Assembly: GCA_035457425.1 (NCBI GenBank) | Contig: DATIBR010000127.1 | Location: 1-44,430, forward strand | From: Terriglobales bacterium | GTDB taxonomy: Bacteria > Acidobacteriota > Terriglobia > Terriglobales > Acidobacteriaceae | Length of the DNA: 44,430 nt | Direction of reading: 5' to 3' | Part shown: piece by piece, positions 7,931-14,120 of the stretch | Numbering within the stretch: position 1 is the stretch's first letter | How the letters are laid out: every line of letters starts with the position of its first letter | Notes under the pieces: generated by a model | Told to the model about the DNA's origin: nothing | The model's input: the letters and a program-made list of their open reading frames with translations, nothing else | The model's database searches: none | Translations under genes and position numbers: made by a program

Positions 7931-10333
7931 TCACAGCGTCAGCTTGAAGCGCGCGTTCTGCGCCTGGAGTTCGGCCATGAGCTTCTCGTAGGCCGGGTCG
8001 CCCTGCAGCGGCTTGAAGTTCGGATCGTTGCGGAACAGCGGGTACGCCGGCATGCCGAGGTCCGCGGTCTTGCGGATCCAATCCACCGCCAGCTTCTTCT
8101 CTCCCAGGAGGGCGTAAGCCATGGCGATGTGGTAGGCAGCGTGGTGGAAGTGCGAGCTTTCCCCGCCGCGCTGGATCGCGATCCGGATCTGCTCGAGCGC
8201 GGTCTTGCGGTCGTGGTCAGCGGCGGCCACCACCGCGTAAACGCTGGCGTAATCGCCCTGCGGATCCTGGTCGATGTGCTTCCGCACCAGGGCGAGCGCC
8301 TCATCCTTTCTTCCCAGGGCCAGCAGCGCGATCCCCAGCTGGTAGTTCTCCTGCAGCCGCATGTCGGTGCGGGTAGCGGTGGCGGGCGGGGGGTTGCGGA
8401 ACGCCTTCACGGCTGCCTCGAAACGCTGCTGGTAAAGCAGGTTGCGTGGGATCCGGTAGTAGGCCCCAGCATTGTTCGGATCGAGAGAGAGCGCCTTCTC
8501 CAGTTCGCGCTCCGCCTCGTCGAACAAGCCAACGTGGTTGTAGAGCTGTCCCAGGATGCTGTGGCCTTGCGACGAATTCGGGTTGAGCTTGAGGCCGTGG
8601 TGCACCGCGCGCGCGGCGGCTTCGTGCGGAAAGCCGTGCAGGCGCGTCCAGAGGCGGATGCTCTCGGCGATGTAGGCATCGGGCAGGTCGGGGTCCAGAG
8701 CGATGGCGCGCTCGACCGCCGCCTCGGCCTTCGCGTCCATCTCGCGCTCGTTCACTCCGATGAAGCCATTGCCGGCGTAACACGACGCCAGGAATGCCTG
8801 CCCTTGCGCGAACTGCGGGTCGAGGGCGACCGCGCGCTCGGCCAGTTGCGTGCCGACGCGCCACTCCGGGTTGGGCGGCATACGGTAGGTGCTGCGCGCG
8901 CGCAAGTACAGCTCGTAGGCTTCGGGCTTCACTCCGGCGGCGGCATTGAGGCGGGAATCCTCCTCGGGGGTGAGCACGACGCGGACCTTGCCCGCGACCG
9001 CGCGCGCCACGTCGTTCTGCAGGGCGAGCACGTCCTTGAGGTCGCGCTCGTAGCTCTGCGACCACAGGTGTCGGTCATTGCGAGCGTCGATGAGCTGGGC
9101 GGTGATGCGGACGCGATCCCCGGAGCGAAGCACCGAGCCCTCCACCACGGCGTCCACGTTGAGCTCGCGCGCGATCTCGGGCAGCGGCTTGCGCGTGCCC
9201 TTGTACTGCATCACGGAGGTCCGCGAGATGACGCGCAGCGCGCTGATCTGGGCCAGGCGCGAAGTCATCTCCTCCGTCATGCCGTCGGCGAAATACTCCT
9301 GTTGTGGATCGCCGGAGAGATTCGCCAGCGGGAGCACGGCGAGGGATTCGATGCGCGCCGCCGTTCCGGGCGGCGGCGAGCCTTTGCGCGTCCAGGCATA
9401 AGTGCCGAGAGCAGCGAGTGCGAGCAGCAGCGCGGACGCCGCCCAGAGGAGCGCGCGGCCGCGCCGCGGCCTCGCGGGAGCCTGCAAGGCGGCGAAGGAC
9501 GACCGGCCGGCGCTCAACCGGCGCAGGTCGACGGCCATCTCCCTGGCGGATTGGTAGCGATGGTCGGGGTCTTTCTCCAGCGCCTTGCCGATGATGTGTT
9601 CCATCTCGGGCGGCAGGTTCCCGTTGAGCGCCCGCGGCGGGACCGGAGGCTGGCGGAGGATCGCGTCCGTCAGCATGGGCGTGCTCACCTGCGGGAAGGC
9701 CCGCTTTCCAGTGGCGAGCTCGTAGAGCACGGCGCCGGCGGCCCAGAGGTCGCTGCGCTCGTCGGCGGGCTCGCCGCGCAGCTGCTCAGGTGCCATGTAG
9801 GGCAGCGTGCCGGCGATGCCGCCGGCGCTCGTCATGCTCTCGGTCGCCGAGGCGGGCGAGGGCTGCAGCAGGCGCGCGAGGCCAAAATCCAGGATCTTGA
9901 GGCGGCCATCGGGCGTGACGCGCAGGTTCCCCGGCTTCAGGTCCCGATGGATGACGCCCTCGGCATGCGCCGCCGCGAGGCCCTCCATGAGCTGCCCGCC
10001 GAGCTCGAGGAGCTGCTTTTCGCGCAGCGGGCCCGCTTCGAGCTGCGCGTCGAGCGTGATGCCGGGGATCAGCTCGGTGACGAGGAAGTCCACGCCGGCG
10101 TCGCTATCGAAGTCGAAGACGGTGGCGATGTTGGGATGGCTGAGGCGGGAGAGCGTGAGGGCCTCGTTGCGGAAACGGCGGCGGCTGCTCTCGTCGGCGA
10201 GCATGCCGGGCGGCAGGACCTTGAGGGCGACGTCGCGGTCGAGCCGGTCGTCGTGTGCGCGGTAGACTACGCCCATCCCGCCCGCGCCGATCTGTTCGAG
10301 GATGCGGTAGCGGCCAAGCGTCTGCAAGTTCAT
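7931..10333 (-). CDS. Membrane Ser/Thr protein kinase with TolB-N-like and TPR sensor region
   Basis: An 800-residue protein. Residues 8-270 are a Hanks-type kinase with the Gly-rich loop GAGGMGVVY, Lys38, HRDLKPGN (129-136) and DFG (149-151), all intact. A membrane span lies at about 293-314. Outside it, residues 329-455 form a FlgO/TolB-N-like domain (LAVLPLANLSGDPQQEYF, ADGMTEEMTSRLAQI), and the rest is a TPR array (LDPDLPDAYIAESIRLW, LNPNSSQGHSILGQLYN). This domain order is widespread in Acidobacteriota. Its stop codon abuts the stop of yacL (convergent, no gap). It diverges from ispD across a 92-bp gap. The phosphorylation targets cannot be inferred. Confidence 0.92.
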   Translation of the reverse strand: MNLQTLGRYRILEQIGAGGMGVVYRAHDDRLDRDVALKVLPPGMLADESSRRRFRNEALTLSRLSHPNIATVFDFDSDAGVDFLVTELIPGITLDAQLEAGPLREKQLLELGGQLMEGLAAAHAEGVIHRDLKPGNLRVTPDGRLKILDFGLARLLQPSPASATESMTSAGGIAGTLPYMAPEQLRGEPADERSDLWAAGAVLYELATGKRAFPQVSTPMLTDAILRQPPVPPRALNGNLPPEMEHIIGKALEKDPDHRYQSAREMAVDLRRLSAGRSSFAALQAPARPRRGRALLWAASALLLALAALGTYAWTRKGSPPPGTAARIESLAVLPLANLSGDPQQEYFADGMTEEMTSRLAQISALRVISRTSVMQYKGTRKPLPEIARELNVDAVVEGSVLRSGDRVRITAQLIDARNDRHLWSQSYERDLKDVLALQNDVARAVAGKVRVVLTPEEDSRLNAAAGVKPEAYELYLRARSTYRMPPNPEWRVGTQLAERAVALDPQFAQGQAFLASCYAGNGFIGVNEREMDAKAEAAVERAIALDPDLPDAYIAESIRLWTRLHGFPHEAAARAVHHGLKLNPNSSQGHSILGQLYNHVGLFDEAERELEKALSLDPNNAGAYYRIPRNLLYQQRFEAAVKAFRNPPPATATRTDMRLQENYQLGIALLALGRKDEALALVRKHIDQDPQGDYASVYAVVAAADHDRKTALEQIRIAIQRGGESSHFHHAAYHIAMAYALLGEKKLAVDWIRKTADLGMPAYPLFRNDPNFKPLQGDPAYEKLMAELQAQNARFKLTL

Positions 10334-10408
10334 CGCACCGCTCGCATGGTTCGCGGATGTTAGGACAAGCCGGCCGCCCGGTCAACCGGCCACAGGCAGG
10401 CTGAGGTG

Positions 10409-10414
10409 TATACT
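10409..10414 (+). promoter_or_regulatory. Probable -10 box of ispD
   Basis: TATACT lies 11 bases before the ispD ATG, and no Shine-Dalgarno sequence is visible between them. The transcript would then have a leader of only a few bases. No convincing -35 box is present at 16-18 bases. Confidence 0.45.
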
Positions 10415-10425
10415 TTTCGCCCCTC

Positions 10426-11202
10426 ATGAAGGTCATCGTCATCATTCCGGCGGCGGGACTGGGCACGCGCATGTCGGCGGCCGCTGCCAGGAAAGACAAG
10501 AAGGCGCCGGGCAAGAAGGCGCCCCTGCCCACCAAGCAGTTCGTCGAGCTGGGCGGAGTGCCCATCCTGGTGCATACGCTGCGCAAGTTCCTGCTATCGC
10601 CGCAGGTCGCGGAGATCTTCCTCGCGCTGCGCAAGCCCGAGGCCGAGCAGTTCAAGGCGCAGCTGGAGAAAGAGCTGAAGCCGGCGGGCGGCAAGCGCGT
10701 GCAGATCGTCGAGGGCGGCGAGCATCGCCAGCAGTCGGTCGCGAACGCGCTCGCCAAGGTGAAGGCTGCGGCCGACGACATCGTGCTGGTGCACGACGCC
10801 GTGCGGCCCTTCGTCGACAACGAGATCATCGCCAGCGTGATCGCGGGCGCGCAGAAGCACGGCGCGGTCATCGCGGGCGTCCCCGCGGTGGACACCATCA
10901 AGCAGGTGGACCGGACCGCGGAGGGCGCCATCGTCGCGTCCACCATCCCACGCGAGCGCGTGGTGCAGGCGCAGACGCCGCAGGGCTTCCGCTACGACGT
11001 GCTGAAGAAGGCCTTCGACGACGCGCAGGCGGAAGGGTTCCTCGGGACCGACGAGGCCTCGCTGGTCGAGCGCATGGGTCACGACGTCGCCGTCGTGATG
11101 GGCTCGCCCAAGAACATCAAGATCACCACGCCTGACGACCTGGAGCTGGCGGAGTTCTTCGTGGCGCAGGAGGACAGGCGGCGGGCAAGCTTGACCGGAT
11201 GA
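10426..11202 (+). CDS. ispD: 2-C-methyl-D-erythritol 4-phosphate cytidylyltransferase
   Basis: A 258-residue enzyme of the MEP isoprenoid pathway that joins CTP and MEP to make CDP-ME. It has the nucleotide loop PAAGLGTRM near residue 8, the substrate lysine in PTKQF, the metal Asp in VHDAVRPF and the C-terminal GSPKNIKITTPDDL, all family signatures. Unusual: between GTRM and PTKQF there is a Lys/Ala/Pro-rich insertion (SAAAARKDKKAPGKKAPL) of about 14 residues relative to the usual short loop. Its partner ispF follows, but a GxxExxY cassette with inverted ends sits between them. Divergent from the TPR kinase. Confidence 0.96.
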   Translation: MKVIVIIPAAGLGTRMSAAAARKDKKAPGKKAPLPTKQFVELGGVPILVHTLRKFLLSPQVAEIFLALRKPEAEQFKAQLEKELKPAGGKRVQIVEGGEHRQQSVANALAKVKAAADDIVLVHDAVRPFVDNEIIASVIAGAQKHGAVIAGVPAVDTIKQVDRTAEGAIVASTIPRERVVQAQTPQGFRYDVLKKAFDDAQAEGFLGTDEASLVERMGHDVAVVMGSPKNIKITTPDDLELAEFFVAQEDRRRASLTG

Positions 11203-11216
11203 AGAAGCGAAAACCT

Positions 11217-11671
11217 TACCGCGGATGAACGCGGATGAACGCGGATAAAAATATTTCTGAAATCCCGCTGCTGCACCGTGAGCTCACGGAGAAGGTCATC
11301 GGGCTCTTCTACGAGGTCTATAACGAGCTCGGCCATGGGTTCCTCGAATCCGTGTACCGGAATTCCTTCCTGATCGCGTTGCAGCAGGCTGGGTTGAGTT
11401 GCAGCTTCGAAGTGCCGGTGCCGGTGTTTTTCCGCGGTCAAGATGTGGGGCAGTTCCGCGCAGACATCCTGGTGGAGGCAAGGTGCTTATCGAGCTAAAA
11501 GCAGTTCAGCACCTGGAGAAGAGCCACGAAGCACAGCTCTACAACTACTTGAGGGCGACGGAGATCGAGGTCGGCCTGCTGCTGAACTTCGGGCCGCGTC
11601 CTGAGTTCAAGCGCATCGCTTTCTCGAATGAAAGGAAAAGGATCCGCGTTCATCCGCGTTCCTCCGCGGTA
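11217..11671. mobile_element. Candidate GxxExxY cassette with 30-bp inverted ends
   Basis: The left end 11217-11246 and right end 11642-11671 are inverted copies with one mismatch in 30 bases. Each arm is a 10-base word (GCGGATGAAC) repeated two to three times after TACC. Weaker similarity (AAACC) extends outward. Between them is a single frameshifted GxxExxY gene whose start codon lies in the left arm and whose last codons lie in the right arm. The cassette separates ispD from ispF, genes commonly adjacent or fused. No target-site duplication is evident. Mobility is inferred, not shown. Confidence 0.6.
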
Positions 11672-11680
11672 GGGGTTTAA
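11235..11680 (+). pseudogene. GxxExxY protein (PD-(D/E)XK-like), single-base frameshift
   Basis: The first part (from 11235) contains the GxxExxY signature as GHGFLESVY, then VPVPVFFRGQDVGQFRADILVE. The frame then goes to a stop near 11498. A shift of one base at about 11478-11482 restores KVLIELKAVQHLEKSHEAQL and YLRATEIEVGLLLNFG, the family's second half. Restoring a single G (GAG GGC AAG) would repair it. The shift falls between the Asp and the E-x-K of a PD-(D/E)XK core, so the current product should be inactive. The final residues (RIRVHPRSSAV) are encoded by the right inverted repeat, and the stop TAA is directly followed by the ispF ATG. The function of intact family members is poorly known. 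A sequencing error is the main alternative. Confidence 0.85.
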
Positions 11681-12205
11681 ATGCGCATCGGCTACGGCTG
11701 GGACTCACACGAGTTCAAGAAGGGCATTCCGCTGAAGATCGGCGGCGTGGAACTGCCGCACGGCAAGGGGCTGGCGGGGCACTCCGACGGCGACGTGCTG
11801 CTGCACGCGCTGACCGACGCGCTGCTGGGCGCCATCGCCGCCGGCGACATCGGGACCTATTTCCCGTCCGACGATGCGCGCTGGAAGGGCGCCGACTCGG
11901 TGGTCTTCCTGCGGGCGGCGATGGAGCAGGTGCGCCGCGCCGGCTACAGCATCGCGAACGTGGATTCCACGCTCATCCTGGCCGAACCCAAGCTCTCGCC
12001 GCACGCCAAGAAGATCCAGGCGCGCGTGGCCGCGCTGTTGCGCATCGAGCCGAACTGCGTGGGGATCAAGGCCAAGACGCCGGAAGGCATGGGCACCGAC
12101 AACGCCGCCATCGCGCACGTCACGGTGCTCTTGGTGCGCCGCGCCCGGAAACCGCGCGCGCGCCTGGCGGCCGCCGCCCACGCCGACCGCGGCGCGGAAC
12201 AGTAA
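11681..12205 (+). CDS. ispF: 2-C-methyl-D-erythritol 2,4-cyclodiphosphate synthase
   Basis: A 174-residue MEP-pathway enzyme that cyclises CDP-ME 2-phosphate. The zinc ligands Asp8, His10 and His42 are at the same positions as in E. coli IspF (GWDSHEF; HSDGDVLLHAL), and KTPEGMGTDNA covers the conserved C-terminal substrate region. The last 15-20 residues are an Arg/Ala-rich extension. The ATG follows the cassette's stop codon without a gap, and the only candidate ribosome site is AGGGG at 11671-11675, directly at the edge of the right inverted repeat. Translation may therefore depend on sequence brought by the cassette. Confidence 0.96.
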   Translation: MRIGYGWDSHEFKKGIPLKIGGVELPHGKGLAGHSDGDVLLHALTDALLGAIAAGDIGTYFPSDDARWKGADSVVFLRAAMEQVRRAGYSIANVDSTLILAEPKLSPHAKKIQARVAALLRIEPNCVGIKAKTPEGMGTDNAAIAHVTVLLVRRARKPRARLAAAAHADRGAEQ

Positions 12206-12221
12206 GATCCAGGAGCGACCT

Positions 12222-14120
12222 GTGAAGAAAGCACTGCTGCTATTGCTGCTCTCCGCCTGCGCCTGCGCGCAACAACCGCCCGCCAGCCAGAAGGTGAAGG
12301 ACACCACCGCCGCCGCCGACGGCTGGGAGACGCCGGCCGAGAAGGCGGACTATGGCACCACGCCGCGCTACGACGAGACCATGGCCTACGTGAAGCGCGT
12401 GGCCGCCGCCGCGCCCAGGCAGGTCAAGCTCGACACCTTCGGCAAGACGCCGGAAGGCCGCGACCTGTGGGTCGCGATCGTCTCGAAGGACGGCGTGTTC
12501 GATCCGGAGCGCGTGCGCAAGTCGGGGCGCGCGACCATCCTGATCCAGAACGCCATCCACGCCGGCGAGATGGACGGCAAGGACGCCTGCCTCGCGCTCC
12601 TGCGCGAGATGGTCGTCACCAAGTCCCAGGCGAAGCTGCTCGACAACGTGGTGGTGCTGATCATCCCCATCTACAACGCCGACGGGCACGAGCGCTTCGG
12701 CGCGTACAACCGCATCAACCAGAACGGCCCGGCCGAGATGGGCTGGCGCACGCAGTCGCAGAACCTGAACCTCAACCGCGATTACCTGAAGGCCGACGCG
12801 CCCGAGACGCGGGCCTTCCTGCAGCTGTTCCAGCGCTGGCTGCCCGACTTCTTCGTCGACGACCACGTGACCGACGGCGCCGACTACCAGTACGACACGA
12901 CGTACGCCATCGACGTCGGCCCCGACATGCCTGCGGCGACCGCCGAGTGGCTGGAGCAGCAGCTCAAGCCGTACATCGAGAAGTCGGTCTCGGACTCCGG
13001 GCACGTCATCGGCGAGTATGTGGGCGTGGGGGAGGCGAACCCGCGGCTCGGGCTCTCGGTCAGCCAGGACCCGCCGCGCTTCTCGACCGGCTACATGGTC
13101 ACGCAGAGCCGTCCGAGCCTGCTGGTCGAGCAGCACATGCTCAAGGACTACAAGACGCGCGTGACCGGCAACTACGAGCTGCTGCGCGCCATCCTGGAGG
13201 TTCTGAACCGCGACGCGGCAAAGGTCGTCGCGATGAACCAGCAGGCGGACGAGCAGACCATCGCGCGCGGCCGCGAGGCGCAGACCGCCACCTACATCCG
13301 CAAGCCGGACGAGTTCCCGCTGCGGCTGGTCACGGCCGACGACACCGTCCCGTTCCGCTTCCTCGGCTACAAGCGGACGACGTCGCTCAGCGAGGTCTCG
13401 GGCGGCGTGTGGAACCAGTACACCCACGAGAAAGAAGAGATCGAGCTGCCGCTGCATCCGAAGCTCAAGCCCTCGCTCACGGTGCCGATCCCGGGCGCGT
13501 ACATCGTGCCGGCGCAGTGGGACAAAGTCATCGACGTGCTGCGCGCGCACGGGGTCCGCATGCAGCCGACGACCGCGGCGTGGTCGGGCGAGGTCGACAC
13601 CTACCGCTGCAATCCGAAGTGGGCGGAGCGGCCGTTCGAGGGCCACCACGTGCTGGGCGGCGGCTCGCCGTACGGCAGCACGCCCCCGGCGGACTGCAAG
13701 CCGGCGCGCGAGAAGCTTAGCTTCCCCGCAGGCTCGATGGTCGTGCCGATGGACCAGCGCGCCGCCAAGGTCGCCATCCACTGGCTCGAGCCGCAAGGTC
13801 CGGATTCGGCGGTGACCTGGGGATTGTTCGACGCCGTCTTCGAGCAGAAGGAGTATGGCGAGCCGTACGTGCTCGAGAAGCTGGCGCGCGAGATGCTGGC
13901 GAACGACCCCAAGCTCAAGGCCGAGTTCGAGGAGAAGCTGCGCACCGACCGCGAGTTCGCCGCCAACGCCTACGGCCGCCTGAACTGGTTCTACCAGCGC
14001 TCGCCGTGGTGGGACGCGCGGATGGGGCTGTACCCGGTGGGCAAGGTGCAGAAGCTCGAGGGGATCCCGCTGGAAGCGCCGAAGCCGCAACCGAAAAAGC
14101 GGAAGCTGTTCGGCCGATAA
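12222..14120 (+). CDS. Secreted M14-family zinc carboxypeptidase
   Basis: A 632-residue protein starting with GTG, six bases after AGGAG. The signal peptide VKKALLLLLLSACACAQ contains LSAC, a possible lipobox, so it may be a lipoprotein. The M14 zinc site is NAIHAGEMDGKDA (His and Glu) with the third ligand in DDHVTDGADYQYD. NLNLNRDYLKAD is the substrate-binding Arg region. The M14 domain takes up the first half, and the remaining ~300 residues resemble the extension seen in large bacterial M14 peptidases that act on peptides in the envelope. Placed just after ispF (16-base gap), probably by read-through rather than shared function. Confidence 0.9.
   Translation: MKKALLLLLLSACACAQQPPASQKVKDTTAAADGWETPAEKADYGTTPRYDETMAYVKRVAAAAPRQVKLDTFGKTPEGRDLWVAIVSKDGVFDPERVRKSGRATILIQNAIHAGEMDGKDACLALLREMVVTKSQAKLLDNVVVLIIPIYNADGHERFGAYNRINQNGPAEMGWRTQSQNLNLNRDYLKADAPETRAFLQLFQRWLPDFFVDDHVTDGADYQYDTTYAIDVGPDMPAATAEWLEQQLKPYIEKSVSDSGHVIGEYVGVGEANPRLGLSVSQDPPRFSTGYMVTQSRPSLLVEQHMLKDYKTRVTGNYELLRAILEVLNRDAAKVVAMNQQADEQTIARGREAQTATYIRKPDEFPLRLVTADDTVPFRFLGYKRTTSLSEVSGGVWNQYTHEKEEIELPLHPKLKPSLTVPIPGAYIVPAQWDKVIDVLRAHGVRMQPTTAAWSGEVDTYRCNPKWAERPFEGHHVLGGGSPYGSTPPADCKPAREKLSFPAGSMVVPMDQRAAKVAIHWLEPQGPDSAVTWGLFDAVFEQKEYGEPYVLEKLAREMLANDPKLKAEFEEKLRTDREFAANAYGRLNWFYQRSPWWDARMGLYPVGKVQKLEGIPLEAPKPQPKKRKLFGR

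Follow-up and report, generated by a model that had tools for sequence, protein, structure and literature searches.

The closest known systems to the units described here are REPtrons and TIRtrons, in which, according to the accessible parts of the reports, REP or TIR palindromes occur together with tyrosine transposases of the RAYT or TIRYT type (TnpA_REP) (PMC3733652, PMC8266576). Another group of proteins linked to DNA movement, in the portions of the literature available to us, are the Rpn (YhgA-like, recombination-promoting) nucleases, which are small PD-(D/E)XK enzymes (PMC5350276, PMC10327210). GxxExxY proteins are common proteins that have been given a name and no assigned function. 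Our literature search, which was thin on subscription journals, found no description of repeats around their genes.

The window, by which we mean the whole stretch of 44,430 nucleotides analysed here, is the entire contig C127 of a 3.14-Mb genome. The original prediction described a GxxExxY gene packaged between 30-nt inverted ends and lodged between ispD and ispF. Profile matches to both host genes (PF01128 and PF02542) bear out this location, and the inverted ends (11217-11246 and 11642-11671), as read from the sequence, match at 29 of 30 positions. A repeat search extends the arms beyond 30 nt, to 37 nt each, with 92% complementarity and a distance of 395 nt between them. The flank complementarity score of the unit is 30, against 12.5 for the best among 177 shuffled flanks under the same scoring. 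The features of the locus are as follows.

10426..11202, plus strand: ispD, upstream host gene (PF01128, E-value = 2.9e-60)
11210..11246, plus strand: left arm, an outer AAAACCTTACC followed by CGCGGAT three times at 10-bp steps (sequence, repeat search)
11235..11498, plus strand: GxxExxY gene, part 1, 87 codons, with its ATG within the left arm (TIGR04256 positions 1-68, PF13366 positions 2-70)
11477..11480, plus strand: one-base frameshift, at the meeting point of the two family matches
11477..11680, plus strand: GxxExxY gene, part 2, in another frame, inside ORF 11399-11680 (TIGR04256 positions 68-115)
11642..11678, minus strand: right arm, the left arm inverted, with minus-strand words CGCGGAG, CGCGGAT and CGCGGAT (sequence, repeat search)
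11671..11675, plus strand: AGGGG, possible ribosome site of ispF supplied by the right arm (from the sequence)
11681..12205, plus strand: ispF, downstream host gene (PF02542, E-value = 2.7e-56)

The cassette gene had been described as carrying its own start and stop, with its first and last codons encoded by the arms. It is not a single open frame: the family matches are split over two frames, TIGR04256 positions 1-68 in one and 68-115 in the other, which points to a one-base frameshift near 11477-11480, either real or an assembly error. Both halves are well above the curated cut-offs, with 65.6 and 52.5 bits against TIGR04256 (cut-off 35) and 68 and 53.8 against PF13366 (cut-off 22). As to the codons, the start (11235-11237) is indeed located in the left arm and the last codons are provided by the right arm, but the stop codon (11678-11680) falls outside the 30-nt arm. 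Because of the frameshift, the window copy is probably a dead member of the family, unlike most other GxxExxY members listed, of which the open frame is intact. The copy at the ispD-ispF junction of G001, the one same-genus relative compared, is also frameshifted, at another place (L144, G001:C3:36691-37031; family position 32), so that both same-genus copies at this junction look dead. The cassette was further said to bring the ribosome site of ispF; the right arm does supply an AGGGG 5 nt before the ispF ATG, which may serve in that role. The arm is shared with other loci, since a genome search for GCGGATNAACGCGGAT with up to 2 mismatches yields 17+18 matches, against 4+1 for the reversed control, and the exact triple array occurs nine times in the genome, against zero for the control.

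The assignment of GxxExxY to the PD-(D/E)XK nucleases agrees with both the predicted fold and the kept residues. The model of one member (L211, pLDDT 94.8) exhibits its best VIA match to the Cas4-like structure 4ic1 (Z = 9.8), and most other rows are restriction enzymes, Hjc or Cas4. The best Foldseek E-value for the model is only 0.0078; a PDB search by sequence gave no match, and the Foldseek E-values likewise indicate no close relative. Residues E29, D69, E79 and K81 are invariant in 51 GxxExxY proteins. By this model, the protein adopts a predicted PD-(D/E)XK fold and is a putative nuclease.

Inverted arms are the rule around GxxExxY genes, and a typical unit is about 450-480 bp long. The source genome contains seven such genes (8 family matches, two of which are the halves of the window gene), each with its own inverted arms. 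The arm words are CGCGGAT for the window unit, CACGGAG on contig C31, CACAGAG on C52, CACAAAG on C173, CACGGAT on C18 and CGCNGAG on C79, with a weaker pair, CGCAGGG/CGCGGAG, on C142. Among 177 units from many phyla, 160 lie above every shuffled control for inverted flanks and 17 are without clear arms; the median arm score over the 177 is 21.5, against 9 with flanks swapped between loci. These units, out of 181 (four with short flanks were dropped), come from the GTDB family, from the phylum and from the best 80 of 581 found in a scan of GTDB species, and are at that last point a biased sample. The best 80 belong to Bacteroidota, Planctomycetota, Chloroflexota, Pseudomonadota, Cyanobacteriota and others, with one archaeal locus, a single MAG contig. 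At least four units are counted twice, under a genome handle and as a public contig (L116/L176, L117/L178 and L118/L184 with the same protein, L113/L175 with the same arms). Flanks of ispF, taken as a control, exhibit inverted arms in 2 of 29 loci, both of which have such words flanking ispF itself. For the comparison loci, 25, 25 and 29 of 30 each were used (Y1_Tnp, TIGR02436 and ispF, respectively). A first flank statistic, by which only 51 of 76 units exceeded the 95% point of locus-swapped flanks, was dropped; its low yield arose because the scoring allowed overlong alignments and several loci have words in common, and the test that replaced it combines stricter scoring with the shuffled control. 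GxxExxY is present in 107 of 297 genomes sampled from the Acidobacteriota phylum. No GxxExxY was found in phages, and plasmids gave 8 records among 72,556.

Each arm consists of about three degenerate words of the form C-R-C-N-R-A-K, some 8-11 bp apart, and the word differs from unit to unit, even inside one genome. Conditional on this pattern, which was partly fixed in advance (letters 1 and 3 fixed, two letters allowed at 2, 5, 6 and 7), the word mismatch at letters 2, 5 and 7 is.091,.045 and.031 within a unit, against.485,.379 and.262 between units. Letter 4 is looser (.304 within,.659 between). Word class purity within units is.919, against.433 after shuffling. Of the 212 collected units, 185 were kept for this set (arm score of at least 13), and 159 of these were used (at least four words).

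The word class follows the protein subfamily. On a protein tree of 153 of the 159 units (those with stops or fewer than 95 residues were dropped), the class changes 41 times, against 85.8 when shuffled, and none of 200 shuffles is as low. The nearest protein neighbour has the same word class at a rate of.70 against.23 (148 units). Words ending in T accompany mostly the FYxVYNELG..NFG protein type, which includes the window gene, while a second, small T-word group belongs to Bacteroidota. In an exploratory comparison, all 7 of the 7 independent pairs that were informative link A at letter 5 to a non-T residue in second position of the LTxxII stretch, a residue column that is the top-ranked of all columns in the same data. 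Those seven come from 12 pairs, of which five agree, two more agree via longer N-termini aligned by eye, four are ties, one contains a row too decayed and none is against. Column-by-column pair tests, with at least 2-3 pairs on starred branches, were replaced by near-pair ranking and by pairing on the best tree. The word-protein link could come from arms and gene being inherited together, and from nothing more.

The arms are also dispersed without a gene. In 1.08 Mb of fetched loci, 126 array pairs face each other, 122 of them being of a single class, against 26 back to back. The 122 comprise 65 GxxExxY units, which are those that the fetched loci were chosen for, 30 gene-less hairpins (loop shorter than 60 nt), 18 copies of one G195 element and 9 others. 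A gene-less hairpin occurs in the source genome (C104:10957-11047), and a complete hairpin is found on both sides of the GxxExxY gene in L145, L234 and L239. Genomes contain up to 103 two-word arrays, mostly distant from any of their 1-7 GxxExxY genes, against 0-1 per genome and strand for reversed-pattern controls. The median number of arrays is 24.5 in the 42 genomes with GxxExxY and 0 in the 38 without (p = 9e-7); the p values on arrays are guides, because genomes of one family are not independent. Ten of the 38 genomes without GxxExxY still hold at least five AGG arrays, and one holds 50. Of the 15 genomes having the matching protein type, 11 contain the window word class, as do 12 of the 65 others, after 1-2 arrays were subtracted by judgement for genomes with a CGCNGAT-arm unit (12 of 15 before). 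For AGG, the commonest class, array class is not tied to gene class (p = 0.70, class known in 33 of the 42 genomes), and a class-specific spread of AGG arrays has no support.

Individual arms are found in other surroundings. A lone CGCGGAT arm at C146:31054 (L006, near 1501-1538) directly precedes an ATG, which we take to be that of dnaG, and would supply its ribosome site. At C146:14527-14827 (L003, 1249-1529), the arms enclose a possible 71-residue membrane-like ORF, judged by eye, with a second frame also open. Another possible small membrane-protein ORF is in or beside CGCGGAT arms on C65 (L004, near 1501). Neither of these two small ORFs exhibits a Pfam match above the cut-off.

In G195 (L278-L316) there are about 50 family matches, about 30 of them both nearly identical and truncated. 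Autonomous amplification was rejected there, because the DNA common to 18 of 20 copies spans a neighbouring ORF, presumably an IS5-like transposase, and ends with that element. The element with this IS5-like ORF has picked up a GxxExxY unit with its arms, and carries decayed versions to dozens of places.

At fixed sites the units come and go. The ispD-ispF junctions of relatives, where the original prediction proposed to look for the empty site, were read in 30 cases (of 58 genomes with an ispF match). Five contain GxxExxY (one of them a short remnant, in G025), and three contain words ending in GAT without a gene (G021, G009 and G026). A further 21 have a spacer of 8-222 nt that lacks such words, and one is unclear. 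This junction holds 9 of the 212 collected units, in nine genomes and eight genera of the source family. Other tandem words are also seen there, GTTAGCA-like, CCAACGA-like and TTAGTGA-like (L049, L064, L068; G004, G006, G028). Between the source genome (G000) and G001, the C127 and C173 sites are filled in both, whereas in G001 the C31 site is wholly empty, the C52 site contains a gene-less hairpin with a different word and the C18 site one with a like word. For C142 only one flank was found in G001, with no unit beside it (by eye), and C79 was not placeable.

A similar picture is obtained for two sites of the genus g119. At site A, 10 of 15 species have a short spacer; the site is filled in G185 and decayed in G284, and G299, G140 and G175 carry gene-less hairpins made of other words there. 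Site B was read in 14 species. Four of them (G185, G299, G262 and G175) have GxxExxY at this site, two (G313 and G337) have gene-less hairpins, two more (G128 and G238) have an HNH gene enclosed by CACCAAG arms, and five (G284, G165, G246, G230 and G329) have hairpins of another word kind; G270 has something else. The HNH-type ORF of G238 and G128 (L354 and L355, 228 residues) is thus found in arms where relatives have GxxExxY or gene-less hairpins; its HNH match passes the Pfam cut-off and its SAD_SRA match is below the cut-off. We take this ORF to be SRA/HNH-like and its site to be the pyrB-pyrC junction, the host gene names at sites A and B being likewise our reading. Filled and empty sites were judged from their flanks, where the MAFFT alignment misaligned. 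A comparison of filled and empty sites by eye gave no readable target-site duplication, the spacers being too different between species.

At the two sites filled in both same-genus genomes, the gene has diverged more than its surroundings. Compared with G001, the C127 gene keeps 6 of 30 fourfold sites, against 82 of 130 in ispD and 67 of 97 in ispF (figures uncorrected for base composition). The C173 gene keeps 10 of 36, against 152 of 223 and 144 of 221 in its neighbours; corrected for base composition, a correction that covers C173, the expectation is 0.57 and the probability of 10 or fewer of 36 is 0.0004. The edges of the C127 unit are kept: the right arm is identical at 36 of 37 positions, and the left arm retains its three words with changed spacers. 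In a DNA tree, both genes from the C127 site cluster with those of other genera (support of 92 for each, not starred). In 6 of 6 pairs the site B unit likewise exceeds its flanks in silent-site divergence, a less clear and uncorrected result. Since the gene is saturated at silent sites and the neighbours are not, at 2 of 2 shared-filled sites, the inside of the unit seems to have been replaced. The original prediction of a small mobile or self-spreading cassette is supported to this extent by the absence in relatives, the arms at other loci and the diverged inside. A part of the history at ispD-ispF, however, may be inheritance: the words ending in GAT are there in several genera, which is compatible with inheritance accompanied by loss and gene replacement, rather than with repeated insertion.

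We lean towards the view that GxxExxY units are a REPtron-like repeat system, in which the putative PD-(D/E)XK nuclease drives the spread or replacement of the unit by recognising the words arrayed in it. Alongside the observed anatomy, word-protein coupling, dispersal and turnover of the units, we infer word recognition, cutting and movement by the GxxExxY nuclease. The nuclease would bind double-stranded DNA, namely the words arrayed in its own hairpin, and cut at that place. A matching hairpin that is cut would be repaired from a gene-bearing one via 30-40 bp of arm homology, by which the gene would be replaced or added. In this way, breakage and repair would copy the unit, or the gene alone, from one matching hairpin to another, much as in homing, with the arms retained and the inside exchanged. 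If the cut fell at the outer ends, the hairpin could be carried to new intergenic sites. Gene-less hairpins would form the non-autonomous part of the system and stand to the nuclease as REPs stand to RAYT transposases. Wherever sites were read, units occupy the gap between one gene's end and the next gene's start, and arms supplying a stop codon or a ribosome site would keep the host genes functional.

It is unlikely, in our judgement, that an enzyme encoded elsewhere (e.g. a Y1/HUH transposase) moves the hairpins as non-autonomous elements, with GxxExxY as cargo or accessory. Such an arrangement would fit the presence of other genes in like arms, namely HNH in G128 and G238 and the possible small membrane ORF on C146, and Y1_Tnp genes do occur in 9 of 12 genomes searched, the source genome included. 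However, the Y1_Tnp loci are flanked by other inverted sequence (23 of 25 above 12.5) and not by CRCNRAK words, G238 and G175 exhibit 10 and 8 GxxExxY matches and zero Y1_Tnp matches, and the word is not expected to be predictable from a cargo gene.

Quite unlikely is a role of GxxExxY as a repressor, a defence nuclease or a toxin with the words as its operators, the gene and its operators being inherited and swapped jointly without self-spreading. Co-variation of protein and word is expected of operators too, and the conserved active site would suit a nuclease of this kind, but the words are on both sides of the gene and mirror each other, and most of the two-word arrays lie away from the few genes. 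PADLOC models gave no match for two GxxExxY members.

We consider it very unlikely that the arms act as RNA, that is, as transcribed hairpins ending, protecting or processing mRNA, where genes lodge by chance. The hairpin shape, the intergenic places and the ability of arms to carry a ribosome site are what such hairpins would exhibit. Against this, the word class tracks the protein, an Rfam search of 10300-12500 gave no match, and the free letter 4 agrees between stem-partner words in 189 of 261 cases, hardly more than between other words (354 of 522). So slight a difference favours words read as double-stranded DNA over a stem kept for its pairing, and some effect of stem pairing or of recent palindrome origin is possible. 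Finally, the idea that a small gene is merely surrounded by simple sequence or by inverted repeats that arose by chance, which the short and repetitive words might bring to mind, is refuted by the unit (160 of 177), reversed-control and orientation (126 against 26) counts and deserves practically no credence.

The TIGR02436 four-helix-bundle genes of the same genomes (L398-L427, with L398, L411 and L419 in the source genome) provide a parallel. They exhibit inverted arrays on both sides in 25 of 25 loci, with a 7-bp period: the mean best 20-nt identity reaches 16.4 for a lag of 7 and 15.3 for a lag of 14, while other lags give 9.2-10.4. In some genomes, hairpins resembling those of TIGR02436 are also seen by eye at the ispD-ispF junction and at site B. 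This parallel suggests that the pairing of one small gene with a word-array hairpin is a general plan. Returning to a nuclease that spreads by its own words, we tentatively propose, as a possibility that falls short of an even chance, that GxxExxY units are a new selfish repeat class across bacteria and perhaps archaea. Its protein-to-DNA code would reside at letters 2, 5 and 7, its mirrored words would be both ends and homing target, its hairpins would seed intergenic sites and its genes would swap in and out, and TIGR02436 with its 7-bp words would be a second independent system of the same plan.

The anatomy gives each GxxExxY protein a predicted DNA target that is readable from its own flanks, so that binding and cutting are directly testable with matched versus mismatched words. 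If the proposal is true, there is a maker for many of the CACAGAG- and CGCGGAT-type intergenic repeats that lack an explanation in environmental genomes, a dedicated enzyme is not unique to REP/RAYT among repeat systems, and GxxExxY would represent a compact DNA-binding family whose code can be read.

Several known systems share parts of this arrangement. In the accessible part of the report, S23/TIGR02436 intervening sequences are, like GxxExxY, one small gene within an inverted-repeat unit, while the fold and the words are different and the TIGR02436 loci found here are outside rRNA (PMC4990558). Rpn nucleases belong to the same superfamily and to another family, and the available portions of the reports describe no repeat arms for them (PMC5350276, PMC10327210). 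Insertion sequences and MITEs resemble GxxExxY units in having a single gene in inverted ends and gene-less derivatives of those ends, and the empty sites in relatives (the C31 site in G001, site A in 10 of 15 g119 species) are of the same kind; in contrast to insertion sequences, the GxxExxY unit contains no transposase, its ends are tandem words and no target duplication was read. Homing endonuclease genes include PD-(D/E)XK ones. They share with GxxExxY units the presence or absence at a fixed spot, and would share the replacement of the inside with kept edges, whereas the supposed GxxExxY target is a dispersed hairpin and not one site in a conserved gene, and no intron or intein is involved.

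The closest likeness is again to REPtrons and TIRtrons, which, as far as the accessible parts of the reports describe them, similarly have a single small gene for DNA processing, flanked by inverted repeats or by complete hairpins, and many dispersed intergenic gene-less copies with several families per genome (PMC3733652, PMC8266576). In contrast to REPtrons, the GxxExxY enzyme is of the PD-(D/E)XK and not of the HUH type, and its repeat, about three words in a row followed by a single mirror image of them, has a word class for each protein type and is not a GTAG-tagged palindrome. The window unit encodes PF13366 alone, without a HUH tyrosine transposase, the Y1_Tnp genes of the genome being on C2, C159 and C190. 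Lacking the enzyme that defines REPtrons, the unit is therefore not filed as a REPtron or TIRtron. The Y1_Tnp genes collected for comparison (L368-L397) exhibit strong inverted flanks of their own, REP/TIR-like, in the 23 of 25 loci mentioned above. GTAG occurs by position in the right arm of the window unit, but the sister arms of the genome read GTAAG, and thus the GTAG tag is not kept. A REP-like trait that is present is the dispersal of gene-less copies of the flanking repeat.
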